Shown in pieces: positions 1,601 through 62,091 of a DNA stretch of 64,000 nucleotides. How positions within the stretch are numbered: the first letter of the stretch is position 1; the number at the start of each line of letters is the position of its first letter. Origin of the DNA: Coffea arabica (Eukaryota; Streptophyta; Magnoliopsida; Gentianales; Rubiaceae). The position numbers and the translations under genes are program-made. The notes under the pieces were generated by a model. It was not told where the DNA came from and searched no databases. It was given only the letters and a program-made list of their open reading frames with translations. The stretch covers positions 19,593,557 through 19,657,556 of the forward strand of contig NC_092320.1 in NCBI RefSeq assembly GCF_036785885.1, given 5' to 3'.

Positions 1601-1612
1601 TTTTAGTGGGAG

Positions 1613-2550
1613 TTTATTATTTTAAACGCTCTTATGATATTTTTCAGTTATTGAGGATTTAAGGATATTTTATGCATAAATAAAGGTTGGATTTATTTAC
1701 ACTCTGACTTTGGTATGGTTTGATCTCATGAAAATTTAAGGTGGACCAGTTGAAAATAGGCATGTTTTGATCATATTACATGAAATTTTCATACTACACA
1801 TCCACATCATGATTCATGTCATTCAATTGCATCGATATATGTGACCATTGATGGGTCGAGTTACGAAATTGTGACAAAGGCCACTTTGATCCTACATTTG
1901 TGTGATTGATGGATCGAATTGGCTAAAGATACATTTTAGTAATGATAGTAAAGTTGAGCTTATACGGTTAATTGCGAAACATAATTATAAGGTTACACAT
2001 ATAGTTCAAGTGGAAGATTGTTGGATCCTTAATCCAACATTGGACTTATATGTGAATAATTATGGGTTGCAAACTGTCAAATAAAGTTAAATTCAATTAA
2101 AGTGATCAAATGTGGTTTGGACTTAATGTATCTAAGAGGATGTGGGTCTTTAATGTGTAGAAAGTTAAGAGCTCCTATTTCTATAATGGGCTGAAATAGG
2201 GCTCCAAAAGGTAACAGGGATGTTACATATAAATAGGGTTATGGTCCTTAAGTCACACGGATCATCATTATTTTGTCGTATTTTCTAGTACCACAATATA
2301 CAGCCCTTGCCTGATATCCCATCGTCAGAAAAAATACCAGAGAGATATTAAAGAGCTCTCTCAAGGATCAGAGAATACGTGTTGACCTGGAAAACCACCC
2401 CAAATTCTCTAAGAATTCCAGTATCAAGTTTGTCAATATAGATCAAGGTACGCTTCCGCAATTTTGTGTTAATTACTTCTTAATAATCATCATAAAGATC
2501 TTGGGTTTCATAGGTGATAGTTTTCACCAAAGGTTAAATATAAATAACCG
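1613..2550 (+). mobile_element. probable 3' LTR of the copia fossil (ends approximate)
   Basis: This stretch lies just after the purine-rich tract that ends the copia pol region. It contains a promoter-like TATA stretch (ACATATAAATAGGG near 2225-2238) followed by leader-like sequence, which is the normal LTR arrangement. The exact borders and target-site duplication could not be fixed because only one LTR is in the window. The assignment rests on position and composition. Confidence 0.5.
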
Positions 2551-3480
2551 CCCTAACAAAAATAACTTTAAAGCCACCAAATCCGATGCCAAATTTAGAA
2601 GAGAACCAACCTTGGTATCCGTAGTTCTTGAAGTTTTCTGCAGCTAGCTTGATCATTAGTTTCCAACATCGAAACAGACTTTTCTTGAATTTTTTCCATG
2701 TTCATTTGATGCCAAAAGGTGTCAAAAGGTATCCCATTCTTCTCTTTTCTCTCATATATACCTGAATATGCAACAAATATGCCAAAATGTTGCTTCATTT
2801 GTTTTTGCCGTTTGCATTTTTCTTGCTGTTTTCATTCAGGAATTATTAGATTTCCTCCCTGTCTTCTTGTGATTGTATGTGGTATTTGAGTAAATGAGAT
2901 TTGGATGTCGTTGGAGGTTGCATTATGGTCCCATTTTGTTTCTGAACTTGGCTATTTGGACGGAAAATGTTGCTGGAAATTAACCCAGAAAGTTGCAGAA
3001 GCCATCGAGCAAGATGCGTGAAGATTTTTGAAACTACGTTTTCACCCCTGACTTTTTAAATAATTTCATTATAGCCCAAAACTTCTGCAAATAAATCATT
3101 TTTACCCCTTTAAGCTTTAATCTTCTTTGATATGTTTTAAGCATGGTTTTCAGTTAACTATTTCTGGTTTTTAAGAGTATAATTACATCTTAATATTTTT
3201 TATTGATTTATTGTCTTGTTGGGTTTAGTAATTAGTTTAGGAGTTTGGGTAATGTTATTTGTTTGGTTTTCTGGAAATGGATTTTAGTTATTTCTGATTG
3301 GGTTTTGTCTTGGGTTAGGAGGCCAAAGCCCATGCTTTTTCTGTTGGTTTGTTTGGATAAATCTATGAGTTGGCCTGTGTGTATTTGCCTTAGACTTTTG
3401 ATTGGGCTTAGGAAGCTTTGGCACAAAGAAATAAAAAAAAAATGGCCCAATTGCCTGATGCTCTTAAGAAACCAGAAAAT
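2551..3480. other. AT-rich stretch without a recognised gene
   Basis: Only short open frames occur here and none resembles a known protein. It lies between two LTR fossils and is probably degraded repeat or old spacer. Confidence 0.5.
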
Positions 3481-4858
3481 GAAATTGCATATTAGTCCCT
3501 GTACTTTCAAGTAATTTCACTCATGTCCTAAAAACTTTGATTTTTTTTCAATTAGGTCCCTAATTTAATTTCAATTTGATCCCTAAATTTTATTTTTATT
3601 TTATTTTGACCCCTTATTTTTGTAATAATGATAATTTGACCCCAAAAACTTTCTTAATTTTTGCAATTCGGTCTCTAACAGTTTTGATTTCTTAACACAA
3701 GTTGTTTATCTTCTTTAATTGTTAATTATACTTCATTTAAGTATTTTAATTGGTCGATTTCATGATTATTTCCATTTCTTTATAATTAAATTGGTTCCTT
3801 GATCATTTTGTTGATTTTGGAGTATAAGTAGGGCAATTTTCACCCTATTTAATCACAACTTCAAGGAAGGTAACCTTCTTTTCTTATTTTAAATTCTTCT
3901 ATGTGCTCCAATGTGTTTTTATGTGTAATTGCATGTTTTGAGTTTTTTTTCTTTTAATTATTCCTTTCATTTTTTTTAAGTTTCATTTATTTTATTTAAT
4001 TTTGATGATTATTTGTGAGGCATTTAAATGTCAAATTGTAATATATAGGAGCTCAAGACATGTCTTTAGCTAGCTTATGTAATTGATAGATCTTAATTTT
4101 GCCAAAATGTAATTAGTTAGATAAATGTAATAGTTAGGTAATTATTTTTAAAATTTCCCTTAGATTGTAGTTAGGGTTCCAAATGTAATAGTTAGGTTTT
4201 TATTTACGTTGATTTGCTTGTGTGCGTACGTGTTTATTCGCTTTCATTAGGGCTTTGCATCTAGAAATTATGCTTATGTGTTATGTGCTCTATGTGTATT
4301 ATGTGTTTACTTGTTTTAATTATGTTTATATGATTTATTTAGTTATAATAAATGCATGATGTCACCACATTAATCCAACGCTAGTTGTTGCCCTTTCTTC
4401 CTGATTTCTTACTAGTCCAATGCTAGTGAAAATTGGTAGAAATGGGTTAGTCTAATGTTAGACCCTTTAGGCCATTTTTGTGCTAGATGCATACTTTGCT
4501 CGACATTTTTGCATTTCATGCATGCTTTCTATGACTATGACTCCCGAACCCTTTTCTCTTGTTCTCAAAGACCTAGAGTCATGTAAACTAAGGGTTTTAT
4601 CTGTTTTTTTTTTATTAAAAATACAGTTTTTGGTGATTTGGTACACCTAAACTCAATACTAAGTGACGACTTCTACTTTTTCATAAAACCCCTCTTTAGA
4701 TTATTATTTTGGGCCAAAATCACTTTTTAAGTCCCATTTTAGGTCCTTTTCTTTTATAAACTCAAAAATTCATTGTTCACTCAAATAAACTCAAATTTTT
4801 GCAATAACCTACTTATAAACTTATTATTTTATTGTTTTTCAAAAAATAGGGCGCGATA
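3481..4858 (+). mobile_element. LTR- or leader-like Ty3/gypsy debris
   Basis: The stretch is T-rich, with runs of the 'tttaggtccctaattt' type and, near its end, a GTGACGACTTCTAC block followed by an AATAGGGCGCGATA block at about 4846-4859. Blocks of this kind are common at the ends of plant Tat/Ogre/Retand-type LTRs (established knowledge, from memory). No matching second LTR is present, so borders and family are tentative. It precedes the Athila-like coding remnant. Confidence 0.35.
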
Positions 4859-28907: not shown

Positions 28908-29746
28908 AGGGCAGTTCCTGGTTTCCAGTGAAGACCTTGAGCCCAACGCTGTCCCAAATGGGAAAAAAACATGTCACATGCCGGACACGTGTGAGGATGA
29001 CCAAACTTGCCACCAATCTCCTTTTGCCACGTCACTAAGAAGCCAATCCCCTTGTGCCACATGGGCGGCCGACCATTCATACATGGTAGGGGAGATGTTC
29101 ATGCTTATACGATATGGTTGATAATGTATTGGGCAAGTGTGTGCTAGCATAGTTGACAAGATGATTAAATTAGAGAAATTCATTATGTAACTCAGGCATT
29201 ATCTTGTTGAAACCATGTTTAATGACTAGGTTGTCATATGAGCTGTTTTTTTTATTTTTCTTTTTTTGGATTTTCCATTCCATATTGTTTACATGTATAG
29301 TAGGTGATAGACGAACTAATCTACTCGATACTTGTGCAGTATTGCTCAAGAGGTGGTGTTCAGTTGTCATTGGTTCGTCAACTAATGCAACCATAATTTT
29401 CTATTTAATTATGTTTTCAAAATTAGTTGAGCCCGGCTGCATAAGCATGAAACTTGAAATTTACATGTGTATAAACCAAGCTATTCAACATCAGTTTGAG
29501 CATGGCTTAGTAATACTGGGTTGTTTTAGCTCAGCTCAAGTTAAGATCAAAGCAAGATCTTTTCAAAGAAAAAAAATCATACCAAGCTTGAAAATTGTAT
29601 TGTTTGACTAGATTAGGTTTGTTGAAACCCCTAGTTGAAATGTATGTTCTTTAGTAGATTAGTTTTTTTTTTTGGAATACAATCAGTTATAAGCATGTTC
29701 AGTACCATGAATTTGTTGTTCTATTTATTTCTTTTCAGTGTTTTTC
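28908..29746. other. sequence upstream of the FRS coding exon
   Basis: No protein similarity is seen. The last part is T-rich with a good branch/acceptor region before 29762. Confidence 0.4.
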
Positions 29747-29763
29747 TTTGTGTGAATGCAGAA

Positions 29764-32733
29764 ATGGGAGACAAAGAAGACCAGCTTGATATGACGCAAA
29801 AGGGTTTCATACCCTATTATGGACAATTGTTTGATTCAGACGACAAAGCTTACAAATTCTACAACATGTATGCAGCAACCATTGGATTTGGTGTTCGAAA
29901 AGAATATTGTAACAAAGATAAATTGGGAATAGTAACTTCAAGGAAGTTTGCATGTAATAAAGAAGGATTCCGGCGTCAGGATAAAAGGGATAGGGAAACA
30001 AAGAGACCTCGTGCAGAAACTAAGACAGGATGTCTTGCTTGTGTCATTATACTACTTGACAGGGACACAAAAAAGTATAAGGTGACACAATTTGTGGCAG
30101 AGCACAATCATCCATTGCATATTCCACAATGCGTACACTTGATCCCCTCACAGAGAAGGACAACAATTACACAGGATAATTCTGAATTGGTTGATGCATA
30201 TGGGTTATCATTGAAGCAGTCCAATAACCTTGTAGATAAGTTGGGGTATCTTCCAAACAAGCGCTCTAGAGGCTTAAGGTTTGGGGAAGCTGGAACCATT
30301 TTCAGATATTTTCAACAGCAACTTCTGGAAAACCCATCATTTTACTTTGCTGTACAATTGGATAGTGAGGAACAATTAACTAATGTCTTTTGGGCTGATG
30401 CAAGGATGACTATAGACTACAAATATTTTGGAGAGGTGGTTACTTTTGATACGACATTTAGAAAAAACGAGGAATATCGTCCCTTGGGCATTTTTCTGGG
30501 ATTTAATCATCACCGCCAGATGGTAATATTTGGTGCTGCACTATTATATGATGACAGTGTTGACTCCTACAAATGGTTGTTCCAAACCTTTCTAGAAGCC
30601 ATGTCTGGTAAGCCACCGAGAACATTCTTCACGGATCAAGAACCAGCCATGGCAAAAGCTTCAGCTTCAGTGATGCCAAACACCTTCCATGGGTTGTGCA
30701 CGCATCATATTCGTCAAAATTTCCTGAAACACCTTGGCCACATGATGAGGACTGAAACGGGTCTGGTACAATTGTTTAGCAAGTGTATGCTTGAAATTGA
30801 AGATGAAGTAGCATTTGAGGAAACTTGGAGAGAGATGCTTCAGAAACATAACCTGGATTCTAATACATGGCTTAAGAGTATTTATGAGCTGAGAGAAAAA
30901 TGGGCAAAGACATACATGAAGACAAAGCTCACATTAGGCATGCGAAGCAAGCAACTCAGCAAAAGCTTCAATGCAGACCTCAAGCATCATTTAAAGACCG
31001 ATCAAGATTTGGTGGAATTCTTTACCGAGTTTCATAGGGCTGTTGAGAAAAGAAGATACAAAGAATTGACTGCTGAATATGGGGCAAGGCAAAAGGTACC
31101 AAGTTTGAAGATAAAGTACTCACCCATGCTTAATCAGGTTGCAGAGATATATACTCCTACTATATTTGAGGAGTTCCAAGATGAGTTTGACGTATCTCTT
31201 GCCTTGGTAGTGAAGGGTCATACAGTAAATGATAATGTGCATGAGTATATGTTGGCACGCTATGATGGAGGAGATGATCAGAGAGTCATTTGTGAGAAAT
31301 CTACTCAATCAGTCTTGTGTAGTTGTCAGAAGTATGAATGTGAAGGAATTTTGTGCTCCCATGCAATCAAAGTACTAGATTTACTTAACATAAAGTTAGT
31401 GCCTAATGATTTAATAGAAAAGAGATGGACAAGAGATGCAAAAAAAGGAATTTTGAAAGGACCTAACCAGGAGAATGATATGGAGGAGGATGTCCATTTG
31501 AAAGTTGTAGGGCGGTATAGAATGCTGTGTTCAACTTTAGTTAGGGTTGCTATTAGGGCTGCAGAATGTCAAGAAGCTACAGACTACCTTGTGCAATGTG
31601 TGGATAAGTTGACAAGAAAAGTTGAAGAAATATGTAATAAGCAGATGTCAATTGAACAAGCTAGCACAAATCACCAGTCATCTTATAATGCAACAGACCA
31701 AGAAGATGTTTTGGTAATTTCCATGGGTGTAAACCCATCAGGCTCAAAAAGTGGACAGGGCTGCAAGTCCAATAAACGGACAGGAAGCTGGACTGACATG
31801 TTCGGTGAAAAGAGTATGTATGAGTCAAATAACAACCAAGTTCAGGTAGTTGTAACTAGTACCTATTATCTTTTCAAGTTTGTTTAGTGGTAGACTTCAT
31901 GTGCAGCATTTGAGATTGATCACACTTCCTTTTTTGATAGATTGCTGATCAAAGCCAAGAAGTTTCAGTTGACCATGTGTCTTCTCCTCAATCAGCTAAT
32001 AACTCTGTTTCAGTAAGTGATATAGAAAATACTTTTATTAAATGAACAACATTTCCTTCATGGTTGTTAGCTAAATAAGAACTGTTGGTTCTGTTATGTG
32101 ATGCTCAGGCTAGGTCTTGCTCCCAATCTACTGGTGACCTTTTGCATTTACATCAAGCTACTTCGTATCCGTCCCAGGTAAACACTGATCATTGAGCAAT
32201 TAAATTGGCAGTTTACCACTCTCTCAAATTACGCCTGCTCTATAATGCAAAAAATTGCTTCTAAATGTCTGAGAATGGTAGGTTGGTGCTGAAAAACTGG
32301 AGGCACTTTTGCCCATACTAATACTTTTTGAATGATTCAGGATAGCAATAGCAATTCCCTAATTGGTCAATCTTCTGTGGAAGTGGTCCAACGTGCGAAC
32401 AATGTATGTTTGTTTATATAATAAGGATTTGTATTTTTGGAGACACTATATGGCACCAAATTTTGTGATGATATCTGTGACATTGTTAACGGGTCTGTTT
32501 TGTGCCACATAAGGGTGCTGTATTGGAAAATAGGAACTTCTTAATGAACTTCAATGGGCTTGGTACTGCAATGTCTCCCACTGGAACTCAGTTTCTGATG
32601 GTAAAGCAATCCATATTCTATTATCACCATACGTATCTGCAGAGTTTGTACTTGTGTGATTAATTTTTAATTCCTTTTATATTGGGGTGCTTTTGCTGGT
32701 GCACAGCCACATTGGGCTGCTAATCAGAGCTGA
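29764..32733 (+). CDS. FAR1-RELATED SEQUENCE (FRS/FHY3 family) transcription factor, six coding exons
   Basis: Coding exons 29764-31845, 31941-32012, 32109-32177, 32341-32403, 32514-32600 and 32707-32733 join in phase 0 and give 799 residues. The start MGDKED follows a strong acceptor at 29761. Domains: an N-terminal FAR1 zinc-binding DNA-binding domain (about residues 27-118, ending in H114-N-H116), a MULE transposase-derived core (about 220-325, with acidic residues D229 in TFDTTFR and D291 in FTDQEPAM), and a SWIM zinc finger (C519, C521, C531, H533). The family arose from Mutator-like transposases and acts in the nucleus as DNA-binding regulators, best known in phytochrome A signalling. 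The short C-terminal exons (polar, Ser/Gln-rich) are supported by splice signals and reading phase only. No break is seen. Which FRS subgroup it belongs to is uncertain. Confidence 0.92.
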
Positions 32734-37662: not shown

Positions 37663-39079
37663 ATGGCAGATTTGTTCTTGAATCAGGCTAAGCAGTACTC
37701 CGCCAGCAGGCCAAGATACCCAGATCAACTTTTTGAATTCATTGCATCCAAAACCCCTTCCCATGACCTTGTGTGGGATGTGGGCACTGGCAGTGGCCAG
37801 GCTGCTGCTGCTGTAAGTCCCTCAACTTCTCTCTCCCTTCCATTGGAATGTTGACTATGGATGGTGTGCTTTACTGTTTGCTAGTTCGCACGTTGCAGGT
37901 CAGCTGGCGCAGACATCTTTTATTTTATTCCTTTTTGAATCTCTTTGAATACGATTTGGACTCAAAGGAATGTATAACAGATTGAAGGCATCTCAAGGGG
38001 ATAAATTAACTTAAAAGACTTGTGATTATGCAATTATGATTTGCTTGTCTCACATTTTACAATAAACAGTATTAGCAGTAATTGTTTTTTGTTACTGTCG
38101 GATTTGGTGATAACATTTGAATAAGCATTGGTGACTTGGTCCTTGTTCCAATAGTCCAACCCTACAATTCAGGTCAAATTGGCTAATAATAGTCCAATTT
38201 ACTTCTTTGCTTGTTTACTGGCTTGGTTAGCTGTTTGTTTAAGGTGACCAACTTACTTTTAAGTAGTAAATTTTTGAAGCTGCACAATATTTACCAAGCA
38301 ATACCTTGGAGCTGAATATGGTTTATCAGAAAGGGATTGGACAAACTGAATTGTATTACTAACATCGAATGCCTGCCTAAATTCAACTGGCAAGATTGTC
38401 TTATCATCTTATCCATGCAATTCATTCTTGTCAGCTGGCAAAGATCTACAAGAATGTAATTGCCACAGACACAAGCCCAAAGCAGCTGGAATTTGCACCA
38501 AAGGTTCCGAATATTCGATACCAATGTACTTCCCCAAAGTTGTCCATTGCAGAGCTTGAAGAAAACATTGCAGCAGAGTCCACTGTCGATTTAGTCACCA
38601 TTGCTCAGGCTTTGCATTGGTTTGATTTTCCTACCTTCTACCAACAAGTGAAGTGGGCACTGAAAAAACCCAATGGAGTAATTGCTGCATGGTGCTACAC
38701 TGTGCCAGAAATTAACCCCAGTTTGGATGCTGTCTTCCAAAGATTCTACAAAGTTGATTCTGATCCTTACTGGGAACCAGAGCGTAAATTGGTGGATAAT
38801 AAATATGAAACCATCGATTTCCCATTTGAGCCTGTGGATGGCGTTGATCATACCGGACCATTCCAATTCAAAGCAGAGAATGTGATGGATTTGGAAGGCT
38901 TCTTCACATACATAAGATCATGGTCTTCCTACCAAACTGCTAAACAGAAGGGTGTGGAACTCTTGAATGAAAATGTGGTCAAGGATTTTACCTCTGCTTG
39001 GAATGAAGATGGAATATCTAAAAAAGTTGTCACTTCCCCTATTCATCTGAGGATTGGGAAAGTTGGGAATTTGCATTGA
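37663..39079 (+). CDS. SAM-dependent methyltransferase (DDB_G0268948/embryo-abundant-like), copy 1
   Basis: Exon 1 (37663-37812, 50 codons) and exon 2 (38435-39079) join in phase 0 across a 622-bp intron to give 264 residues, normal for this family. The N-terminus KQYS-type motif is QAKQYSASRPRYP, and SAM motif I is WDVGTGSGQAA at about residues 38-48. ATDTSPKQL is the motif II region and ALHWFDFPTFYQQVKW is typical of Methyltransf_11/25 members. The family is related to yeast trans-aconitate methyltransferase Tmt1; plant substrates are not established. It is the most divergent intact copy of a four-gene tandem cluster and appears functional. Confidence 0.92.
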
Positions 39080-44484: not shown

Positions 44485-45373
44485 ATGGCAGAATTGTTTA
44501 ATAAGCAGGCTAAACAGTACTCGGAAAGCCGGCCAACTTACCCAGAGGAGCTGTTCCAGTTCATTGCATCCAAGACACCGTGCCATGACCTCGCTTGGGA
44601 TGTAGGCACCGGCAGTGGCCAGGCTGCAAGAACTGTAGGCATCTTTAAACCAGAGCCGACACTAAATTTTTCTTTGGAACAGTTTTTGTTGAATTGTGCT
44701 TTACTGATTAATCACTACTGACTTTTGTCAGTTGGCTGGGATATACAAGAACGTGGTAGCCACAGACACGAGCCCGAAGCAACTGGAATTTGCACTCAAG
44801 CTTCCCAACATTAGATATCAATGTACGCCTCCTAAGATGTCTATTGCTGAGCTTGAGCAAAATGTCTCGGTAGAATCAAGTGTTGATTTAGTGACAAGTG
44901 CTGCAGCTATGCACTGGTTTGATCTTCCAACTTTCTACCAGCAAGTGAAATGGATACTGAAAAAGCCTGATGGAGTAATTGCAGCATGGTCCTACGCTAA
45001 GGCGGAGATCAACGCTGCCAGTGCTAACACTCTTCTCCAAATGCTATACGATAATTGTGATCCTTACTGTGATCCACGAGCCAGATATTTCGTACATGAC
45101 AGGTATAGAACCATTGATTTCCCATTTCAGCCAGTTGATGGGCTTGAGCACACTGGACCATTTGAATTCAAAACGGAACGCTTGATGGATTTAGATGACT
45201 GCTTCACATTCATAAAGTCATGGTCACCATACCAAACTGCAAAAGATGCAGGAGTTGAACTCTTGAGTGATGATGTGGTTCAGGACTTCACCCGTGCTTG
45301 GCATGAAGATGCCAATCCCAAGAAAGTTGCTACTTTTCCTATCAGCCTAAAGGTTGGAAAAGTTGGGAACTAG
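44485..45373 (+). CDS. SAM-dependent methyltransferase (DDB_G0268948/embryo-abundant-like), copy 2
   Basis: Exon 1 (44485-44634) and exon 2 (44732-45373) flank a 97-bp intron and join in phase 0, giving 263 residues. SAM motif I is WDVGTGSGQAA; further family motifs are VATDTSPKQLEFA, AAMHWFDLPTFYQQVKW and the C-terminus LKVGKVGN. It is nearly identical to copy 4 in coding, intron and flanking sequence, so these two arose by a recent duplication. It looks intact and soluble (no signal peptide or membrane segment). Substrate unknown. Confidence 0.92.
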
Positions 45374-46376: not shown

Positions 46377-47478
46377 TAAGGGTGCGTTTGCTTCTATAGA
46401 ATTAGAATTGAATTAGAATCGAAATTCTATAGAATTGGAATTCTATGAATTGGAATTCCAAGGAATTTCAAGTCATTTCAATTCTTTCGTTTGGGAAATA
46501 CATAGAATTGATACGGAATTTATTTGGAATTCCAAATTCTTTGTTTGTATGAGAGAAGAATTCATTAGGAATTAGAATTGTTTTCAAGAAAATGCTTACA
46601 TAAAATTTTTCTTTTTTTCTTTTTTCTATATAATAAATTCTTTTTTTTTCTTACATTTAGCTAATTTTTACTAAAGATTTAAAAGAAAAAACCAATTTGT
46701 GCCTTTAATAATTTATTTTTTCTCACTCTCATATCAATTTCTTTGGTGAGCATTTCCTTTAGCATGTTTTGATCCATTATCCCTTTTTGTGAAGAAATAT
46801 TTCCCCATCTCAGCCGTGGTATTTTCAACTGTGTTTTGATATATTATCATAAAGCAAAATTCTTTCTTATTTCTAATACTTATGCAAAATTCAAAAAAGA
46901 TTTCATCAATCATAATAGCTATGCACAACTAAAACTCAAACTCCTCTATTAAGTACCAATGGCATGATAAAAATATGAGAGAGGAAAAGTTGAAGCAATT
47001 TTTCACTCATGTGACAATAACTACAAAATCAAGAAGCAATATTTCATGAAAAAAAGGTAAGAAAACAATCAGTTACAAATAAATCCTACATATGCAACAA
47101 AAACACTTGATCAAATGCTTCAACTGCATAAACCAAAAAGCTCAAAACTATCAGTTACAAATAAATCCTAACTCAAGAGGCCAACTGTATAAACCAATTT
47201 CTGCTTCTCCCGTTTCCACCCCTACTCCAACCGCCTCGTCTTGTTTCTGTCTCTGTTTTATGTTCTTCAGTAAATAAATAGAAACTTAAAAACAAAAAAA
47301 ATTCCAGCCAAAACACATATCTCCAAATACCCCTTTGTTTGTTCATATCAATTCTTCACTTAGGTAGCTGCACATTGAGCCGTAAGGAGAGTTGATAGCC
47401 ACGAATTGTATATGTTCAAGCATAACTCTGCAGATCAGAGGTCAAGAGAAAGTACTTCAATGAAGCAGCAGATACAAC

Positions 47479-47675
47479 ATAGGTATATTGCTGAGAGGTT
47501 TGATGTAATGATTGAGGAGATCATAGAGGAACATCAAGAGACAAGGACGAAGCGTCGGCATAACAATGATGCAAGTCAACAAATGAAGGATCTACTTGAT
47601 ATATTGCTCGACATATCTGAAGATGAAAGCTCAAACATAAGATTGACAAGAGAGAACATCAAGGCTTTTATCCTG
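47479..47675 (+). pseudogene. captured cytochrome P450 exon fragment (CYP93-like)
   Basis: The frame reads RYIAERFDVMIEEIIEEHQE, then KDLLDILLDISEDES, then RLTRENIKAFIL. This is the part of an A-type plant P450 just before the conserved intron; AFIL is followed by GTAAAA at exactly the place where that intron usually begins. It resembles CYP93-family enzymes (flavonoid pathway) from memory. The oxygen-binding helix, ExxR and heme-binding cysteine region are absent, so it cannot encode an enzyme. It lies inside the PIF/Harbinger-type element. Confidence 0.8.
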
Positions 47676-47989
47676 GTAAAACTCATGGCTGCCTCCTCTT
47701 GTTTACTTTTACCTTTTATTGTCGCAATTGATTTATGAAATGGAACTAGATTTCTGCAACAAGAATACCGCATCTACTACCATCAGGGTAGTAGGAACTG
47801 TAGGACAACTGTAGGACAACTGTTCTAATTAGTGTCAAAATTGAACCGTTATTACCAGGCTCAATAGTTGAAACATGAAAGCCAGAGATAGAGCTATAAT
47901 TTTCACATCAAAAACCTATTCACAGCATTCTAAGTGCTTGAAAATAAATACCTTTATAAAACCACAGATACAAGGAAGACTGAAGTGAC

Positions 47990-48110
47990 GATCTTCAGCC
48001 TTTAAGCATGCCCAACTTCATATCAGCCCACAACTTTGATATCAAGAAGAATGCACCGACTTCACTTAAATGCAGGGCAAGGTTAAACAAGCCTTCCTGT
48101 AACATATTAG
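47990..48110 (-). pseudogene. possible third captured gene tail (unidentified)
   Basis: On the minus strand a segment reads LFNLALHLSEVGAFFLISKL, then WADMKLGMLKG and a stop. It looks protein-like in composition, but I do not recognise the family and it may be chance. Confidence 0.2.
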
Positions 48111-48940
48111 GAACAATCAAACACATTTAAATATACGCTAAGAGAGAGTGTGTGAGAGAATTTATGACAGCATTAAATAGTCCAAAACAAACATTCATCA
48201 CATTCCATGTCCATTGACGAGAATTTAGCAGCCTTGAGCTGATACATAAAATATTTTCAGGCCCTGACAGCAAGTTTTTCAACAGCCACTGCAGTATAGA
48301 ACTAAAAATTCGCTCTGTCAAAGTAAATTTGTGATTCCTTCTATGATTCTAGATACTAAGTTAAGAAGAGTAGAACTGGTTTTAAGAAGATTTTTTAATC
48401 TGACACTTGGTCATAACAGCCAACAGCCTTGGAGTGTGAACTGGAGACGTTATATACTTGATCATAACAGCCAACAGCCAACAAATTTATGCGTATTGGT
48501 GAAATAGATTTTGTTAATATAATACAAGTTTTAAAGAGATTAATTCTATCATATATGATAAAAGCAAAATTGATTTTTCATTTTCTTATGACTGCACGAA
48601 GATAGTGTTACTGAAACGAACCTTCATTGTTTTTCACGCAAACTGTTTATGCTTTATTAGGATGTGTTAAAACTTTTGTGAATATGAAGACTACTTTCTC
48701 GGTAAGAAAGTGAGTTCCAATTTGTTAGCTACTACTAAGAGCAAAGAATATGCAGTCTAAAAGGTTTAAGCTATGTTGATCTTTAAGTAAAGCATTTTTC
48801 ATCTTTTTTTCTTAATATACATTTCAGCAGCCATTGGCCAGGAAAGTTGATAATTAAGCTCTAAGGCTCAGAGAACTAAATTCAACACTCCCTCATTTTC
48901 TCTCCTCAATCTCACACAACACACACACAAGAGAGAATTA

Positions 48941-49123
48941 ATGGAGGAGATCCAACATTTCAGTCATGAGCATCCCTTGATATTGAGCAAACTCAAAGAC
49001 GATGAATTCTCTGATAAGAAAATTAGTCGTTGCAGAGGCTGTTCACTTAAAATTTTGCCAGGATCAACCTTTTATTCATCAATATCTAGGTATGTTCTTC
49101 ATATTACACACCATCCACCATAA
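48941..49123 (+). pseudogene. captured 5' end of a DC1-domain (C1-like zinc finger) gene
   Basis: The frame starts MEEIQHFSHEHPLILSKL and continues with SRCRGCSLKILPGSTFY and YVLHI. DC1 proteins typically begin with HFSHEHPL, then CxxC, G..FY and a LH pair. Several expected cysteines are missing and the frame ends after 60 codons. The preceding CACACACACACAAGAGAG sequence looks like a captured 5' leader. It is a fragment inside the PIF/Harbinger-type element. Confidence 0.65.
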
Positions 49124-49901
49124 GAAACAAAAGGGATCACAAAATTCCATTCAAATACAGATCAACCAGAATTTCATTCAACAATTTACTTGTCTAAAGA
49201 CAAAACAACACCAAAAATTCAACAAGAAAACACTAACAAAAAGGTTCCCTTTTCATATCATGATTAATCCTTTCAACTTTTACAGTATGAGCTCTCCAAT
49301 TTTCATCAAAGTTCAAGGGAAAATAATCAATCAAGTGACAGTGGACAATCAGAGCAACAATGGAATACAAAAGTAATGATCAATGAATTTTGCCAAATTG
49401 GTAATGAAATTTCATTCTTTACTCATCGAATCAATTCTCAATTCATTCACTGGAAGGGAAGGGGAAGACTGACAGAAACTAATTAAAACCCCATAATTTC
49501 AACCTGTGTTATGCAGTGGCTAGCACAAGTGGAGGAGGCGGCGGCAGGAATGCTCCAACAGAGCATTAGATATGGCGATCGATAATGGGAAGAGAAGAGA
49601 GACGTTTGAGTTTTTTCCATCAATTTTATAGTTGACCCATTTTTGAGATTTTACCCGTAAAAGACCCGCGTATTGACCCGATTTAAGAGTTCAAGCGTGG
49701 AATTGGAATTGGAATTCTTTGGTCCAGCCAAAGAATTGAAACTACGGAATTCGATGGATTTAGAATTGCAATTCAATTCTAATTCTATAGGAAAAATAAT
49801 ACCCAAACACAAGAATTGAAATTGAGGTTTCAATTCCAATTCTATACTCCAATTCTATGGAGAACCAAACGTACCCTAAATCAAATTGAGAAGAAATTCA
49901 A

Positions 49902-50400: not shown

Positions 50401-50749
50401 TTTAATCTAAGTTCCAGCAATATCCTTATTCAGTTTCTATGCATTATAACTTGTTGAATGACAGAAAGGTAATGGAGTGGTGACAAGACATAGGGACTCA
50501 TGTCTCAAAAATGTCTCCAGCTGTTTTTCGGAAAAGTATTTCGAACGAATCGTTTGCACTTGCTGTAGGACTCATGCATATCAAGTGTAATTCTTGAATC
50601 CACGCGAGTAACACAAAAAAAAAAACATGTTTTTACATTCATAACATGTACAAAATGAAGAAAATATTGAAGAATTAATTATCGTGTCATCGGCTTATCG
50701 CTCTAATCAATATAATTGTTGTTTTTCTTTTGTCATTTTATCTTTTCAG

Positions 50750-51653
50750 TTGGCAAGGACATTCAAGAAAGTCATAGGGACAGACACTAGTCCAGAGCAG
50801 CTAGAATTCGCAGCCAAGGTACCAAATGTTCGATATGAATGTACTTCTTCCAAAATATCCACAGCAGAACTTGAAGAAAAATTGGATCGGGATCCAGTGT
50901 TGATTTAGTGACCATTGCTCAAGCAATGCATTGGTTTGATCTCCCAGAGTTCTACAAGCAAGTAAAATGGATACTGAAAAAACCCAATGGAGTAATTGCT
51001 GCGTAGTGCTTTACTGTGGCAGAAGTTAACCAAAAAATCGATCCTCTCATGCAGAAAGGATACTATGGTGATGCTCAACCTTATTGGGAAGCACCAATTA
51101 AGCTGGTAGACAATAGATATGAGACCATTGATTTCCCATTTCAGCCTGTGGATGGACTTGATCACACTGGACCATTCAAATTTAAGTCAGAGACTCGGAT
51201 GGATTTGGAGGAGGGGCTGGGACGGCTGTCAGAGACAACCGTTCCGGAAGGTTCACGACCATGATTAGGCCAAAAAATTTGTACGGCTCAGATCACTCCT
51301 TGTAACTCGATTTTCACGCTGTGTGGGACCCACAAAAATATTGTTGTAGTGTTACTCGCTGTTGTTCTATTGTTACATTTTGTACAGATGATGTTACACT
51401 GTATGCAAATGGTGTTACACCTTTCGGAACGGTTAATCTGACAACCATTCCAGCCCCGGATCCGATGGATTTGGATGGCTACTTCACATATATAGGGCCA
51501 TTGCCAGCTTACCAAACTGCAAAAGAAAAGGAAGTGGAACTCTTGACTGATGATTTGGTCAAGGATTTCACTGCTCCATGGACTGAAGATGGCAAACCAG
51601 AGAAAGTTGTTTCTTTTCCAACCTATCTGAAGATTGGGAGAGTTGGCAATTAG
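50750..51653 (+). pseudogene. SAM-dependent methyltransferase copy 3, broken
   Basis: Exon 2 similarity begins at 50750 after a good acceptor (ATCTTTTCAG) and runs to a stop at 51651-51653 with the C-terminus KIGRVGN. Exon 1 with SAM motif I was not found upstream. The frame shifts around 50880 (in the EEK codons), a TAG stop lies at 51004-51006 after GVIAA, and a 254-bp MITE splits the exon at 51210. Surviving blocks such as AMHWFDLPEFYKQVKW and YETIDFPFQPVDGLDHTGPF show clear kinship with copies 1, 2 and 4. Not functional. Confidence 0.9.
51210..51463. mobile_element. MITE inside methyltransferase copy 3
   Basis: This 254-bp element has inverted ends around GGGGCTGGGACGGCTGTCAG and GGGGCTGGAATGGTTGTCAG, each followed by ACCGTTCCG. 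The host sequence GATGGATTTGGA is repeated on both sides (51198-51209 and 51464-51475). A duplication of 9-12 bases points to a Mutator-like origin. No coding capacity. Confidence 0.85.
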
Positions 51654-52425: not shown

Positions 52426-53328
52426 ATGGCAGAATCGTATGATAAGCAGGCCAAGCAGTATTCAGAAAGCAGGCCAACTTACCCAGAGAAACTGTTCCAG
52501 TTCATAGCATCCAAGACACCGTGCCATGACCTTGCTTGGGATGTAGGCACGGGCAGTGGCCAGGCTGCGAGAACTGTAAGCATCTCTAAACCAAAATTCA
52601 ACTCTGCATTTCTTCTTTTTCAGGACAGATTTTCTCGAATTGTGCTTTGCTGATTTATCACTACTGACTTTTGTCAGTTGGCTGGGATATACAAGAACGT
52701 GGTAGCCACAGACACGAGCCCAAAGCAACTGGAATTTGCACTCAAGCTTCCCAACATTACATATCAATGCACCCCTCCTGAGATGTCTATTTCCGAGCTT
52801 GAGCAAACGGTGTCAGCAGAATCAAGTGTTGATTTAGTGACAAGTGCTGCAGCTATGCATTGGTTTGATCTTCCAAACTTCTACCAGCAAGTGAAGTGGA
52901 TACTAAAAGAGCCTGACGGTGTAATTGCAGCATGGTCCTATACTAAGGCAGAGATCAACGCTAGCGCCGCTAATGCTCTTCTCCAGAAACTGTATGATGA
53001 TAGTGATCCTTACATAGATCCACGAGCCAGATTTTTCCTACACGACAAGTACAGAACCATTGACTTCCCCTTTCAGCCAGTCGATGGACTCGACCACACT
53101 GGACCATTCGAATTCAAAATGGAATGGTTGATGGATTTAGATGACTGTTTCGCATTCATAAAGTCATGGGCACATTACCAAGCTGCAAAAGATACCGGAG
53201 TTGAACTCTTGCATGATGATTTTGTTCAAGGCTTCACTCGTGCTTGGCATGAAGATGGCAATCCCAAAAAGATTGCTACTTTTCGTATTAACCTAAGGAT
53301 TGGAAAAGTTGGGAACGGGAGCAAGTGA
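52426..53328 (+). CDS. SAM-dependent methyltransferase (DDB_G0268948/embryo-abundant-like), copy 4
   Basis: Exon 1 (52426-52575) and exon 2 (52678-53328) flank a 102-bp intron and give 266 residues, three more than copy 2 because the stop is read later (ending KVGNGSK). Motifs match copy 2: WDVGTGSGQAA, VATDTSPKQLEFA and AAMHWFDLPNFYQQVKW. It appears intact. The start follows GATCAGAG, exactly as in copy 2. The gene is the partner of copy 2 in a recent duplication. Its role is unknown. Confidence 0.92.
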
Positions 53329-54086: not shown

Positions 54087-57000
54087 TCACGATTTTCTGC
54101 TAGCTAATGCAGTTATAATTCCACCAGCTATAAGTCCCACAGTAGTAACTGAAATGCCAACTCCAATGACACCATCTGCACCATAAAGTTAAACTTTTAT
54201 TCCATGTATTGCTATACTCGAACAAAAAATCCTGAGGATTCAAAGCAATATGGCTATCACCTTTTGTAATTTGTTCTATGACTGTCTTCTCAAGGTACAA
54301 AGCCTGCCTCCAATCAGGTTTAATCTAGCAAACAAAGACAAAACCAAGGGGATAAAAGCACCACTCTTGAACGCAACCAAAATGTTCAACAATTTCTTTC
54401 TTTTGACAAGTAATAGTCACGTTAAACTATGAGCAATTTCACTAATGGGAGCAGAAAACTAACCTCCAAACATTTCTCTACAAGCTGCAGGCTCCTTGAA
54501 TACTCACCACTTCTATAACAACCAACAGATAGAAGGTAAAGCTTTTCACTCTTCTGAGATGGACTATTGGTTCCAGAGAGAGAGGCTGCACACAAACAAT
54601 AGTCAGTCTTTAGTAGTGAGAGTAGTTTGCAACTCATGTTTAAATCGAATTTAAATGCCAAAACTCCAATTGCAGTTCTCTCCTTCCAGCTTTCTAAAAA
54701 GGTCATACACTCTCAAAACAGTATTTTTCATAGTATAGCAAAACAAGTACTACAATAAAGTAAAATTTTAATTCTTCTACTTGTGAAACTCAGCGAACTC
54801 TAACACATGCAATGACATAGGGCTTGTTTGGAAGTGAGTTTTTTGGCCAAGTTTTTTAGCTACAAGTTTTTTAACAACTTTAGCTACAGGAACCCAAAAA
54901 AACTTATCAAATTTTTTAACCTACACACTTCAAAATATCTAATACACAAAAAACTTCTATCTTTCTTCTTCTTTCTCCCCCACCCCATCCACCATACCTT
55001 CATCGCCGGCCACCACCTCTACCGCCGTTTCCGGCGCCGGCCACTTATTCCGACACCGGCGTACCCAAATTTTTTTTTTTCCTTCCTTTCTCCCTCCCTC
55101 CCCTCTCTGGCCAAACTCCCCCAACCTATGCAGCAACAGCGGTTACTTTCTTTTCTGCTCTGGTTTTTCTTTGTCCCTCCAGTAACAGCAATGCTACGGT
55201 TGACGGGGGAACAGAGGGGGTGGGGGTGGCGGGAAACGGGAAACGGGAAGGGGAACAGGGAAAGGGGAAACGAGAGGGGGGACGGCTGGTGGGAGGAGGG
55301 GGTGGCGTGCCGGGGGAGGGGCTGGGGGGCAGCGGGGGCCGGGCTTGCAGAGGGGAGGGGGAAGGGGCAGAGGGGCTGGCGGGGGAAGGGGGCTGGCAGG
55401 GGGAGGAGGCAGCGGGGGAGGGGCTGGCCGGGGAAGGGGGAGGCGGGGGCCAGCGGGGGCCGGGCTTGCAGAGGGGAGGGGGAAGAGACAGAGGGGCTGG
55501 CGGGAGAAGGGGGCTGGCAGGGGGAGGAGGCAGCGGGGGACGGGCTGGCCGGGGGAGGGGGAGGCGGGGGGCAGCGGGGGCCGAGCTTGCAGAGGGGAGG
55601 GGGAAGGGGCAGAGGGGCTGGCAGGGGAAGGGGGTGGCGGGGGGAAGGGCTGGCGGGGGGAGGGGGAGGCGGGGGCAGCGGGGGCTGGGCTTGCAGAGGG
55701 GAGAGGGAAGGGGCAGAGGGGCTGGCGGGGGAAGGGGGGTGGCGGGGGAAATGCAGAGCAGAGGAGAAGGGGGCTAGGAGAAGAGGGGTGGCGGGAGGGG
55801 GAAGGAAGAAGAAGAAGAAGAAGAAAGAGAGGAAAGAAAAGAAAAAGGAAAAAAAGAAAAAGAAAGAGAAAGAAAGAAAGAAAAAAAAGAAAAGGAAAAA
55901 AAATTCACCTTACAAAAATTTTTACAAAATTTTTTATCTTACAAAAACTTTTACAAAAAATTTTTCACCTTACAAAAACTTCTACAAAATTTTTCAAAAA
56001 CTTCTACAGTACACTACAGTAAAGTTTTAGACAAACTCCCAAAAAACTCAGGTTCCAAACAGGCCCATTGTTTTAAACTCTTTGGCCAAAAAAAATTTCC
56101 TAATCATTGACCATCTGTGCCCTCCGTGCAGGAGTAACTACATGCATTATTTGTTTATGGTTGTTCAATGACACTTGTCCTACTGGAATGTAGATGTTTG
56201 TTATCTAGAGAAGTAATCATGTCATTAAGAGATTTTTTTCCTTTTTTTTAAATAATACTGCATGTCATAAGCATATGCCATGTCGTATTAAGGAATTATG
56301 GGCCTGTTTGGAACCTGAGTTTTTTGGGAGTTTGTCTAAAACTTTACTGTAGTGTACTGTAGAAGTTTTTGAAAAATTTTGTAGAAGTTTTTGTAAGGTG
56401 AAAAATTTTTTGTAAAAGTTTTTGTAAGATAAAAAATTTTGTAAAAATTTTTGTGAGGTGAATTTTTTTTCCTTTTCTTTTTTTTCTTTCTTTCTTTTTT
56501 TCTTTCTCTTTCTTTTTCTTTTTTTCCTTTTTCTTTTCTTTCCTCTCTTTCTTCTTCTTCTTCTTCTTCCTTCCCCCTCCCGCCACCCCTCTTCTCCTAG
56601 CCCCCTTCTCCTCTGCTCTGCATTTCCCCCGCCACCCCCCTTCCCCCGCCAGCCCCTCTGCCCCTTCCCTCTCCCCTCTGCAAGCCCAGCCCCCGCTGCC
56701 CCCGCCTCCCCCTCCCCCCGCCAGCCCTTCCCCCCGCCACCCCCCTTCCCCTGCCAGCCCCTCTGCCCCTTCCCCCTCCCCTCTGCAAGCTCGGCCCCCG
56801 CTGCCCCCCGCCTCCCCCTCCCCCGGCCAGCCCGTCCCCCGCTGCCTCCTCCCCCTGCCAGCCCCCTTCTCCCGCCAGCCCCTCTGTCTCTTCCCCCTCC
56901 CCTCTGCAAGCCCGGCCCCCGCTGGCCCCCGCCTCCCCCTTCCCCGGCCAGCCCCTCCCCCGCTGCCTCCTCCCCCTGCCAGCCCCCTTCCCCCGCCAGC

Positions 57001-59282
57001 CCCTCTGCCCCTTCCCCCTCCCCTCTGCAAGCCCGGCCCCCGCTGCCCCCCAGCCCCTCCCCCGGCACGCCACCCCCCTCCTCCCACCAGCCGTCCCCCC
57101 TCTCGTTTCCCCTTTCCCTGTTCCCCTTCCCGTTTCCCGTTTCCCGCCACCCCCACCCCCTCTGTTCCCCCGTCAACCGTAGCATTGCTGTTACTGGAGG
57201 GACAAAGAAAAACCAGAGCAGAAAAGAAAGTAACCGCTGTTGCTGCATAGGTTGGGGGAGTTTGGCCAGAGAGGGGAGGGAGGGAGAAAGGAAGGAAAAA
57301 AAAAAATTTGGGTACGCCGGTGTCGGAATAAGTGGCCGGCGCCGGAAACGGCGGTAGAGGTGGTGGCCGGCGATGAAGGTATGGTGGATGGGGTGGGGGA
57401 GAAAGAAGAAGAAAGATAGAAGTTTTTTGTGTATTAGATATTTTGAAGTGTGTAGGTTAAAAAATTTGATAAGTTTTTTTGGGTTCCTGTAGCTAAAGTT
57501 GTTAAAAAACTTGTAGCTAAAAAACTTGGCCAAAAAACTCACTTCCAAACAAGCCCAATAATAATGAGAAGAAGAGGAGGTATGAGAACTAAACATGGAT
57601 CAAAATATAAGGCATAAAGTGGTTTTCTCTGCTTCCTTTTATAAGTTGAATGTGACTGAACATGCATATAAGTAACAAAGCAACACAATGAAATGACAAT
57701 TATTTGCAAGATGTTGAAAATATCCAGTAAGCTATAGTGATTAGGGAAATAAAGGGACACAAATTATGCAAAAAACCAGATTTTGATGTTGAACAAATAT
57801 AAAAAGAGATTTCAGAGTACTTGGACATTGACAGGTGAGAATTGAGAATGTAAAATCTCCTTTTTGACATAAAAGTAGATGTTTGGTGTATTGAGAAATC
57901 ACCTTCGAGCATAGCAATCCCTCGCTGCACATCTTCCAACTGTGTAGAATGAACAAGAGCCCATGACAATCGCATAATGCTTTCACTCTTTTGTTCATCA
58001 GTACCACTATTTTCTACCTCTGCCACTTCTTTCTCACAGCCCTGCGGATGAATAGAAGAAACTTAAGGCTAACACCAATGGATAAGATACTAAATGTAAC
58101 TTATGCACATATAGCAGCATATGTTACTAATACACTACTCAGAAAGCAATCCCTACATGAAGGCACTTAATATGAGCTTCAGAGACATTCCACAGTGCAC
58201 TCTCCCCTCCTAAATCAAAAACACCAAAGTCTTCCAAGTTATCCAAAAGGTGGGTTTTTGGACAATATGATGTGCATATCTTTGACCGGTGCATACTGTC
58301 ATTTTTTTTACTCCATTCTGAAAAAGAATCAACCAAAAATAGAACATAAGAAATCTGGTAATCCTTTAAAATCCAAATTATTGTGAATTTCTCAAATAGC
58401 AATCTGCAAAACTAACATAATTTGCATTTTTCCACACAATTTTATATGACATTTTCCCCACTGTCTAGCATAGCCATCAATAACCCGTAAAGACCTTCAC
58501 AACACCTCTTGAAAGAATCCTGCTTCCACAACTCCCTAATAGATCAACTTTTGTGGCAAAGGGTTGTATTTTATGCAATGACATTGCTCTGGAAACTATC
58601 AACTTCCAAAACTTATCCTAGTACAACTTCTAAAAGCAACACGAATAGGCCTACATTGCTTCTTTTTTTTTTGGTAGATTATAGGCGTACATTGCTACAT
58701 GCACATATATTTTTCTCATTTACGTTTGAATGGCTATTATTTTCTGAAAAATTACATAACACGTTTCCAAGCACCTTTTAATCTTACATGAACATTTATC
58801 CAAGAAATAAATAAATAAAAAAAAGATAGACTGCAAACCATCAATTCAGATTATGGATGATTGCTTCGATTGCTACTTTAAAAAAAGAAAAACCTCTTTT
58901 TTCCATGTTTCCAGACGTACCTAGAAATCCAAAGGCTAGATTACGAACATAATCTACAAAAAAGGATTTCTACCATTTTTTTTTCCACAACAACCAAATA
59001 GACTTATGAAAGAATTATAGAATCACAAAACTCTAGAGAATTGAAGAAATTCTAGAAACCCACGTCAAGTTTCTAAGATACTCAATCATGCAAGGCTTAA
59101 AAAGTTTAGAAAAATATGGATACAACCAAGAGAAGTCGGAAATTAATGCCAAAATTTTAACAGGGAAAAAAGGGGGTGCAAAAAACTTGGATCTTTACAA
59201 GGATAATGTCCCGATTGCACTTGGGAAGGTGCTGTCCAGGGTTGAAAAAGGAGGTGACAGAATCCAACCATTGCGAAATCAT
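54087..59282 (-). CDS. FIS1: FIS1, mitochondrial/peroxisomal fission protein, five exons
   Basis: Minus-strand exons 59282-59199, 58041-57903, 54585-54464, 54324-54261 and 54175-54087 join without phase errors to 165 residues; plant FIS1 proteins have about 167-170. FIS1 is a tail-anchored adaptor on mitochondria and peroxisomes that helps recruit dynamin-related proteins for division. Family cues are MRLSWALVHS, EDVQRGIAMLE, EKLYLLSVGCYRSGEYSRS (TPR-like helices), PDWRQALYLEK and the C-terminal membrane segment GVIGVGISVTTVGLIAGG followed by the basic tail SRKS. The N-terminal exon is diverged: it reads PKCNRDIIL where relatives have about PWCDRDIIA. Intron 2 (3.3 kb) holds a large inverted repeat. 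The exon 1 call is the least certain part. Confidence 0.92.
54820..56066 (+). mobile_element. G-rich non-autonomous element, left arm of the inverted pair
   Basis: This 1247-bp element has inverted ends GGGCTTGTTTGGAAGTGAG and GGGCCTGTTTGGAACCTGAG. The middle (about 55200-55800) is a very G-rich minisatellite with a unit of about 121 bp repeated some four times (CTTGCAGAGGGGAGGGGG marker at 55344, 55465, 55586 and 55690), followed by an A/G-rich tract. The target duplication is not clear. It lies in FIS1 intron 2. The long Gly/Arg-rich open frames are by-products of base composition. Confidence 0.8.
56300..57556 (-). mobile_element. G-rich non-autonomous element, right arm of the inverted pair
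   Basis: This 1257-bp near-identical inverted copy of 54820-56066 is separated from it by 233 bases. The 5' and 3' non-repetitive parts look the same by eye; the visible differences are small length changes in G runs. The unrelated flanks suggest two insertions or a local inverted duplication. Confidence 0.85.
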
Positions 59283-60444: not shown

Positions 60445-62018
60445 TCAATCCTCTCACTAACAAGAAAAAAAATGGAGATGCCTTAGAACCCTTCATTGTA
60501 TTTGAAAGGGGAAAAAAAAAAGACTCCATCTCATGGGATCTTGTAAAATGGGGCTGTTTCGCTTGAGGATTATTTGTAATTTTATGATTATTTAGAATAG
60601 TACTTTTTGATGATATACATACATAATATTGACAAACGTGCGTAATATAAAAAAATAATAGAAAAGATATTGACAAACGTGCGTAAAAAGAATAAATAGA
60701 TTGTTGTCCACACCCAATATTTAATATGCGGGATAAGCATCACATTACGTGTTTTTGTGGATTCTAACCGTATGCTTCCCGAATTTCATCTACCAGCAAA
60801 ATGGGCACATTAAAGCAAATTCTTGGGCATTGATGCAACCTCCAACAACCAATCTTGTGGTTCAAAATAAAAATATGTTCTTTTTTTAATGCAACATGGC
60901 CTCAATAAGGGTATTTTCGGCATTAAGGGGGTTTTTGTTAAATGTTTGATCATTCAAAGGGTGAGACCATTATTTGGACAAATTACAGGGATTGATTGGT
61001 AATATGGTCAAACCTCAGGAGAGGTAAATGTAATTAACCCTAATCTATACTACATACATAAGACCGATGGACTTGGTCAAGCTATTAACTTAATGTTTTA
61101 GGATAAAAGTAATGTGTAAATCTTTACCATACTGATATTGTATATTTGTAAATGCTAACGAGTTTGGGTGAATGTCAAAGTGTGTAAAATTTATAATTTA
61201 AAGTCAAATTGAAATGATATGCCATTCATTATAATTCGTTAATGTATATACTGTAGAAAAGATTAATCCAAAAATAAAACCTCAAAAGCATGTTAGAGTT
61301 TATTCTTTCTTGTTTTCCTTTGGACTGAATGAAAGAAAGGTCCCAAAAGAGAAAAGATTTGACATTTACCTTCAATATTTATAGCAACTTAAGCGGACAT
61401 TGGTTGCATGGAGACACAAACTGATTAAAATGGTATTATATTTGCGTAATATTATTAAATTTTGAGACGAAATATACTCCTTTTCTCTCAAATATCAAAA
61501 TATCTAATATTTCAAAACAAAATGTATTGATTGCCCACAGCCATCAGGAATAAAATAATTTGGGGAAGGGGATTGCGATAATCAAAGTGGCAAAAAACAA
61601 GACAGAAATTAGCTGGTTTTCATTATTAAGAAATCTAATTGTTATTTTTATATTGGTCATTAAGGAATACAAAAGAAAGGATTAAAAAGAATGTCCGATT
61701 GACAAAAACATAATTTATAACATAGGATTTATCTGTATCAATTCCAATCAAATATTGAACTTAAAAAGAAGATTAATTTCTTTATACCGAAATAGTTTTA
61801 TATATTAGATGAATATATTATTTTGATTTGTTACTTGTTTAATTTTTAGTTGTGTGGATTTGTAACAAACAGATATTTTCCAAGTCTTATGTCTTATTTG
61901 AATTTATTTTTTAATTATCTTTCGAAGTTAAATACTAGTTGTATCATTTGAAGTTTAGTTAGTTGGCGGATAAAAGCACAAAAACTGTACCGAAGCATTC
62001 ATTCAGAAAACAAACAAT
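60445..62018. other. spacer without a recognised gene
   Basis: AT-rich with no protein similarity. A stretch near 60960-61040 ('gacaaattacagggattgattgg' type) resembles common plant interspersed repeats but has no visible partner. Confidence 0.45.
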
Positions 62019-62091
62019 GGCCCATGCAGGTCTCGAACCTGCGACCTTCGCGTTATTAACACGACGCTCTAACCAACTGAGCTAATAGGCC
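62019..62091 (-). tRNA. tRNA-Ile (anticodon AAU)
   Basis: The 73-base minus-strand sequence folds as a full cloverleaf. The acceptor stem is GGCCTAT/ATGGGCC with one G-T pair; the D arm is GCTC...GAGC; the anticodon stem TCGTG/CGCGA encloses the loop TTAATAA with anticodon AAT. The T arm is GCAGG-TTCGAGA-CCTGC. No intron is present. A TTTT run just downstream on the minus strand (62003-62010 region) can serve as pol III terminator. It looks functional and nuclear. Confidence 0.97.

Follow-up and report, generated by a model that had tools for sequence, protein, structure and literature searches.

A 3.5-kb element with PIF/Harbinger-type ends lies at positions 46380-49876 of the window, the whole 64-kb stretch of DNA that we analysed (C11:19593557-19657556), and is flanked by TAA on both sides. 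It is inserted between two Methyltransf_11 genes (44708-45373 and 52654-53328), which are copies of each other. The borders read TAA/GGGTGCGTTTGCTTCT ... AGAACCAAACGTACCC/TAA, and the terminal 16 bases are complementary at 14 positions. The interior holds a piece of a P450 gene, the start of a DC1-domain gene and DNA that elsewhere adjoins a fasciclin-domain gene, all set in the backbones of two element lineages, here called A and B (Table 1).

Table 1 Features of the PIF/Harbinger-type element and its target site, in window coordinates.
Feature	Position	Strand	Remark
Target-site duplication TAA (left)	46377..46379	.	Empty site has a single TAA
Left terminal inverted repeat GGGTGCGTTTGCTTCT	46380..46395	+	Common to relatives
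Left module, lineage A (element 1-1101)	46380..47480	+	In A elements with or without the P450 piece
Short filler, A backbone / P450 piece	47481..47489	.	Junction shared with the C7 and C2 copies
P450 piece, 3' part of exon 1	47490..47675	+	62 codons, open; homology to P450 genes
P450 piece, 5' part of intron	47676..47792	+	303 bp, 95.7% to L032-L034 across the exon border
A/B junction	47793..47806	.	Filler of 2-3 bp plus a single unit of an 11-bp tandem duplication (TAGGACAACTG)
Lineage-B backbone (element 1428-2097)	47807..48476	+	Present as well in relatives that lack the DC1 piece
Stretch seen only in DC1-bearing elements	48477..48940	+	Likely to be the region upstream of the captured DC1 gene, with its leader
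DC1-domain gene start	48941..49069	+	43 codons including ATG; C1_2 match below cut-off; frame stops after 60 aa
Host DNA beside 3' end of fasciclin-domain gene	49070..49374	.	Gene on opposite strand
Deletion scar	49375..49376	.	666-668 bp missing compared with L011/L020/L021; C20 and C3 copies have an identical scar
Right module R1, lineage B	49377..49876	+	Shared with B relatives
Right terminal inverted repeat, reverse complement GGGTACGTTTGGTTCT	49861..49876	-	14/16 complementary to left end
Target-site duplication TAA (right)	49877..49879	.	Empty site has a single TAA

The two flanks of the element, joined at 300 bases each, match a continuous sequence at C12:18622568-18623105 (query 1-532 of 600, 94% identity). 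This site reads GCTAACTCAAATTGAG with a single TAA, and no element sequence was found at the locus at E ≤ 0.001. The matching flanks, together with P450 genes like the captured piece at ~15.6 Mb on C11 and at 14.6-14.9 Mb on C12, suggest that C11 and C12 would be homeologous. The empty homeologous site supports the insertion of the element as a single unit; precise excision from C12, instead of insertion on C11, is conceivable. The first-pass annotation of this DNA had described a PIF/Harbinger-type element with matching inverted ends and TAA flanks, which is borne out here, with similar ends in the relatives. It had also named a competing arrangement, in which the site had its P450 and DC1 pieces from the start and two small independent elements lie at the ends, and had pointed to empty or orthologous sites as the place to look. 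We give this arrangement a negligible probability and consider it ruled out, as the C12 site runs uninterrupted across the target with one TAA and without the element, and nearly the whole structure occurs again on C20 with its own TAA on each side.

The element and its relatives start their short terminal inverted repeats with GGG..CGTTTG, which we take to be the terminal motif of the PIF/Harbinger superfamily. The target-site duplication follows the 3-bp TWA pattern of this superfamily (TAA on either side, one TAA in the empty site), and relatives with the same kind of ends carry frames matching a DDE_Tnp_4-type transposase (2.2e-12 in L011). PIF-type transposase frames are found in L010, L011, L024 and L028, the first part of that in L010 being split over two frames, and partial frames in L021-L023. 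Autonomous members of the superfamily additionally encode a second protein, the Myb/SANT-type ORF1. Three transposase peptides from the relatives were compared with the window by tblastn and had no match at E ≤ 0.01, which agrees with the earlier statement that the element has no transposase; transposase remnants inside the element were sought with the same peptides and none was detected. L010 and L011 have transposase frames together with the DC1 and fasciclin-side pieces, so this cargo is also carried by elements that were perhaps autonomous at one time.

A whole-element search of the 1.198-Gb genome (131 contigs) yielded 54 matches, scoring having covered the best 40 of 567 candidate places; the counts of relatives are therefore lower bounds. 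Among these 40 places, both halves of the element occur only in the C11 element itself and in a copy on C20. Both ends are recognisable in 13 of the 20 fetched loci, and all 13 have identical TAA or TTA on each side. The flank script kept only ends with TWA-like flanks, and a rerun without the flank condition returned the same 13 loci. The other seven (L010, L011, L012, L013, L017, L018 and L027) are without one or both clean ends, with L013 having TGA beside its left end and lacking a right end. L044 on C2 is a 14th complete copy, flanked by TAA and CAA, and identical flanks are thus present in 13 of 14 complete relatives. The search for further copies with the same ends, suggested in the first-pass annotation, reveals relatives across the genome. 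Two DC1-bearing copies, L043 (C8) and L044 (C2), differ in their flanks but have 99.97% identity over 2957 bp, indicating very recent movement, and copies on C16 and C1 are 99.6% identical over 1689 bp. A query with L014:4800-5800 had many mixed matches outside the C11 element.

The P450 homology (47490-47792) consists of 186 bp of exon and 117 bp of intron, with the exon border at 47675/47676. Besides L032, L033 and L034, each 95.7% identical over the 303 bp, two further genes (L035 and L036) match in two blocks of 95.2% and 100%. Because the homology crosses the exon border, DNA and not spliced RNA was copied. The piece had been reported as cut exactly at the conserved intron; the P450 piece itself is present, whereas the cut is not, as the homology continues into the intron, and an exon-only copy is ruled out. 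The proposed search for P450 parents leads to donor-like genes on C11 and C12 with 95-96% identity. In four of the five donor genes (L032, L034, L035 and L036) exon 1 is open and matches p450 (1.5e-39 to 6.2e-38), while that of L033 is interrupted; exon 2, examined in L034, also matches p450 (4e-65), and there its frame runs past the fetched DNA. The captured piece matches p450 with an E of 9e-4, below the curated cut-off (18.5 vs 22.8 bits). Among solved structures, L034 exon 1 has its best match to isoflavone synthase 1, which is also the sole structure matched by the captured piece at E ≤ 10. The CYP93 name comes from the first-pass annotation, and we keep it as an assumption.

The relatives preserve different states of the P450 piece. 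L014, an element on C14, carries 570 bp of the same P450 gene region (1541-2110), and its A backbone runs to 1541, as it does in L015, L016, L026 and L019, from which the P450 piece is absent. In L012, L013 and L014 the homology stops at one and the same position in each of four donors (1173 in L032, 1172 in L034 and 1192 in L035 and L036), and at 1294-1295 against L033; the end base shared with respect to the four donors points to a single capture event as the probable origin of the piece. The C11, C7 and C2 copies share a junction at which backbone position 1101 is joined to the P450 exon, and the C20 copy aligns continuously with the C11 element over this junction. Most forks of the P450 tree are open, and the C14 piece does not group with the other element pieces.

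The DC1 piece lies in the other half of the element. Its C1_2 match is 18.2 bits (E 0.0031) for the 43 codons and 23.4 bits (E 7.4e-5) for the whole 60-aa frame, both below the 26-bit cut-off; the match improves when the 17 residues after 49069 are included. The start of a DC1-domain gene, as proposed earlier, has a C1_2 match below cut-off, and the leader-like sequence would lie in the stretch unique to DC1-bearing copies. In a crude control count, a consensus fitted 6015 of 127898 stretches in the window. With 48540-49080 as the query, all eight matches are copies of the element family. The DC1 stretch and its leader occur at eight places, all of them family copies, and two further matches of a second search span only the last 41 bases. 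A stop codon is present in two of the eight DC1 copies, and these two are nearly identical to each other. The parent-gene search suggested in the first-pass annotation was less fruitful for this piece: neither a close DC1 donor nor a host source of 48540-49080 was found in the assembly, and host DC1 genes have 44-58% protein identity to the DC1 peptide (25 of 33 matches).

Downstream of the DC1 piece, the 305 bp at 49070-49374 are 95.7-96.4% identical to L047 (C22) and L048 (C21), where the neighboring gene, on the opposite strand, encodes fasciclin domains (1.7e-11). L011, L020 and L021 keep 451 bp of this fasciclin-side DNA, which extends into the last part of the fasciclin reading frame, and the deletion of 666-668 bp left the same scar in the C11, C20 and C3 copies. 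L047 and L048 have no resemblance to the DC1 start upstream of the shared stretch, and their reading frames at the part corresponding to the 49070 border have no Pfam match; a NAC-like frame was noticed by eye in L047/L048. The 305 bp may be a third captured piece, or else they may continue the source of the DC1 start. With the C1_2 match improving across 49070, the DNA can be read in two ways: as two captures joined at 49070, or as one capture from a locus whose DC1 start no longer adjoins a fasciclin gene in this genome. It is tempting to speculate that the DC1 donor may have stood beside a fasciclin gene and was then lost.

Together, the element has host gene sequence within intact ends, donors elsewhere (P450 genes on C11/C12, fasciclin-side DNA on C21/C22) and no transposase, and it moves as one unit, as seen from the C20 copy with its TAA/TAA and from the C12 empty site. 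This is the make-up of a Pack-TYPE transposon.

The two halves of the element have different closest relatives. The left half (1-1413) is 95.8-98.6% identical to A elements on C7 and C2, and the right half (1428-3497) is 97.9-99.2% identical to B elements on C3 and C12. By comparison, the left ends of B elements have 81-85% identity to the C11 element over at most 344 bp, and the right ends of A elements 75-82%. In ungapped columns, left ends are 87-91% identical for B vs 94-100% for A, and right ends 70-80% for A vs 94-100% for R1. L021 is left out of the left-end figures, as only its first 177 bp are homologous and its row is misleading; its type was taken from another comparison. For the C11 and C20 elements, the left-end and right-end tables conflict. 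The R1 set, which holds both of them, is starred in the right-end tree (97/95), where the C20 copy groups with the C11 element and the C3 copy (92/84); starred forks number 2 of 16 in the left tree and 3 of 14 in the right. The C11 and C20 elements also share a base that is absent from L010, L011 and L023.

Our comparisons indicate that the element is a recombinant of two cargo-bearing lineages, with an A left half bringing the P450 piece and a B right half bringing the DC1 piece. The first-pass annotation held that one element had collected pieces of two unrelated host genes. The pieces of unrelated host genes are indeed there, while their gathering by a single element is contradicted by the joined A and B halves. 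The join lies at 1413/1428 in the C11 element (47792/47807) and at 1262/1438 in the C20 copy. The simplest reading is one join followed by a 176-bp deletion in the C20 copy; the differing C20 junction would also suit two separate A/B joins, for which we reserve a small chance.

End types were counted in 17 elements with both ends readable, with L013, L017, L018, L027 and L044 left out as one-ended in this comparison. Type A left ends occur with R1 in two elements (the C11 element and L009), with R2 in two (L012 and L014), with R3 in four (L015, L016, L019 and L026), and with a right end 80% like R1 in L025. Type B left ends occur with R1 in four (L010, L011, L020 and L021), with R2 in three (L022-L024), and with a right end 73-76% like R3 in L028. 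Two left types are thus combined with three or more right types. Some combinations of ends may need no exchange of their own, since R2 could be ancestral to both lineages, but one is required for the C11/C20 type. We lean slightly towards a more general reading, in which the family swaps halves as modules and joined cargo halves unite and spread unrelated gene pieces, the family being one that moved recently and in which transposase-bearing members have cargo too.

We then propose, with a probability of roughly 0.84, that the element is a non-autonomous Pack-type PIF/Harbinger transposon that was formed by recombination and would obtain its transposase from elsewhere. An A-lineage element would first have gained 570 bp of P450 genomic DNA, exon and intron, the state seen on C14. 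An internal deletion would then have fused the A backbone to the P450 exon, as in the state seen on C7 and C2. Separately, B elements with PIF transposase frames, in the states seen on C12 and C3, would have gained the DC1 start and the fasciclin-side DNA, by a single capture or by two; a later loss would have removed ~667 bp from B-lineage elements. The A left half was then probably joined to the B right half at 47792/47807, by end joining or by template switching during repair. The resulting chimera is found on C11 and C20, the C11 copy at a site that is empty in the C12 counterpart. The order of the second and third steps and of the later loss is our reconstruction.

In the published Pack-TYPE model, neighboring A and B insertions are mobilised together by their outer ends, and a deletion removes the inner ends and the spacer. 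The model, with fused A+B elements in rice Mariners, is described in a 2022 survey (PMC8903248). It would likewise give an element whose left end is of type A and whose right end is of type B. Linked copies are indeed present: C13 has three A-type places in a 131-kb stretch, and C11 has one ~144 kb away from the C11 element. However, no second element lies within the fetched loci (~9 kb each), and the C11 element has no trace of an inner end and a junction deep inside both elements, so the model needs one large deletion. We therefore regard this route as a possible but unlikely one. Recombination of an A and a B half is the route that we prefer.

The element is most likely mobile cargo without a selected function, as judged from its sequence. 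The first-pass annotation had raised chimeric transcripts or siRNAs against the parent genes. On such a reading the chimera would serve as a functional new gene, or would regulate its donor genes, by way of a fused transcript or of siRNAs that would be sense to P450 and DC1 and antisense to the end of the fasciclin gene. The P450 piece is open, with dN 0.02-0.04 vs dS 0.09-0.12 to four donors, and the DC1 start keeps its ATG and leader-like stretch and reads 60 aa. However, the dN and dS values come from 186 bp only and include divergence of the donors themselves, and the stop codon in the nearly identical pair among the eight DC1 copies speaks against a maintained gene. Such a role, as new gene or as regulator, seems improbable to us.

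The first-pass annotation had considered gene capture less known for PIF/Harbinger elements than for Pack-MULEs. This is right in degree only, as it is already in print: PIF elements of grapevine contain stretches like host exons and introns according to a 2008 report (PMC2528002), and gene capture by PIF elements, including two-gene cases, figures in the 2022 survey (PMC8903248). The element resembles grapevine Pifvine-3, which also belongs to a transposase-encoding family and has exon- and intron-like stretches common to several copies; however, the passages on Pifvine-3 describe no recombinant of two cargo-bearing lineages (PMC2528002). Like maize Pack-PIF cluster 18, it is non-autonomous, and a subgroup of that cluster has pieces resembling two host genes (163 bp and 58 bp), but the survey's account is of ~0.5-kb elements with pieces added in one lineage (PMC8903248), in contrast to a 3.5-kb element with halves of two lineages and clearly different ends. 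Group AB of Os-Pack-Mariner cluster 217 is likewise a single element with sequences of two related elements; it is of another superfamily, and according to the same account has both sequences in tandem (PMC8903248), unlike the one half per lineage found here. In the portions of the open-licence literature covered, we found no description of a PIF recombinant of two cargo-bearing lineages.

The element is thus of a known kind, and the joining of two cargo-bearing halves is its notable part. Models of gene capture by TIR transposons have mostly relied on end products. In this case a single genome contains the empty site, the P450 donors, elements with and without the P450 piece, the later deletion, both parental half-types and two recombinants, so the steps and junctions can be read directly. 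The case also shows that an element with cargo from several genes has not necessarily made several captures itself.

Other features were observed elsewhere in the window. Methyltransf_11 genes stand in a row that also includes 38381-39079, and similar stretches lie at 50741-51651. At 54820-57556, two inverted arms of 1.25 kb, 99.1% identical and 229 bp apart, begin with GGGCTTGTTTGG and have 56% GC vs 34% in the C11 element; no clear target-site duplication was seen around them, and the structure appears to be a recent fold-back. A 750-aa open frame at 29635-31887 has FAR1 (3e-24) and MULE transposase (6.2e-24) domains and is predicted to be either an FHY3/FAR1-type gene or a MULE-derived frame. 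A tRNA-Ile (AAT) gene lies on the minus strand at 62018-62091.
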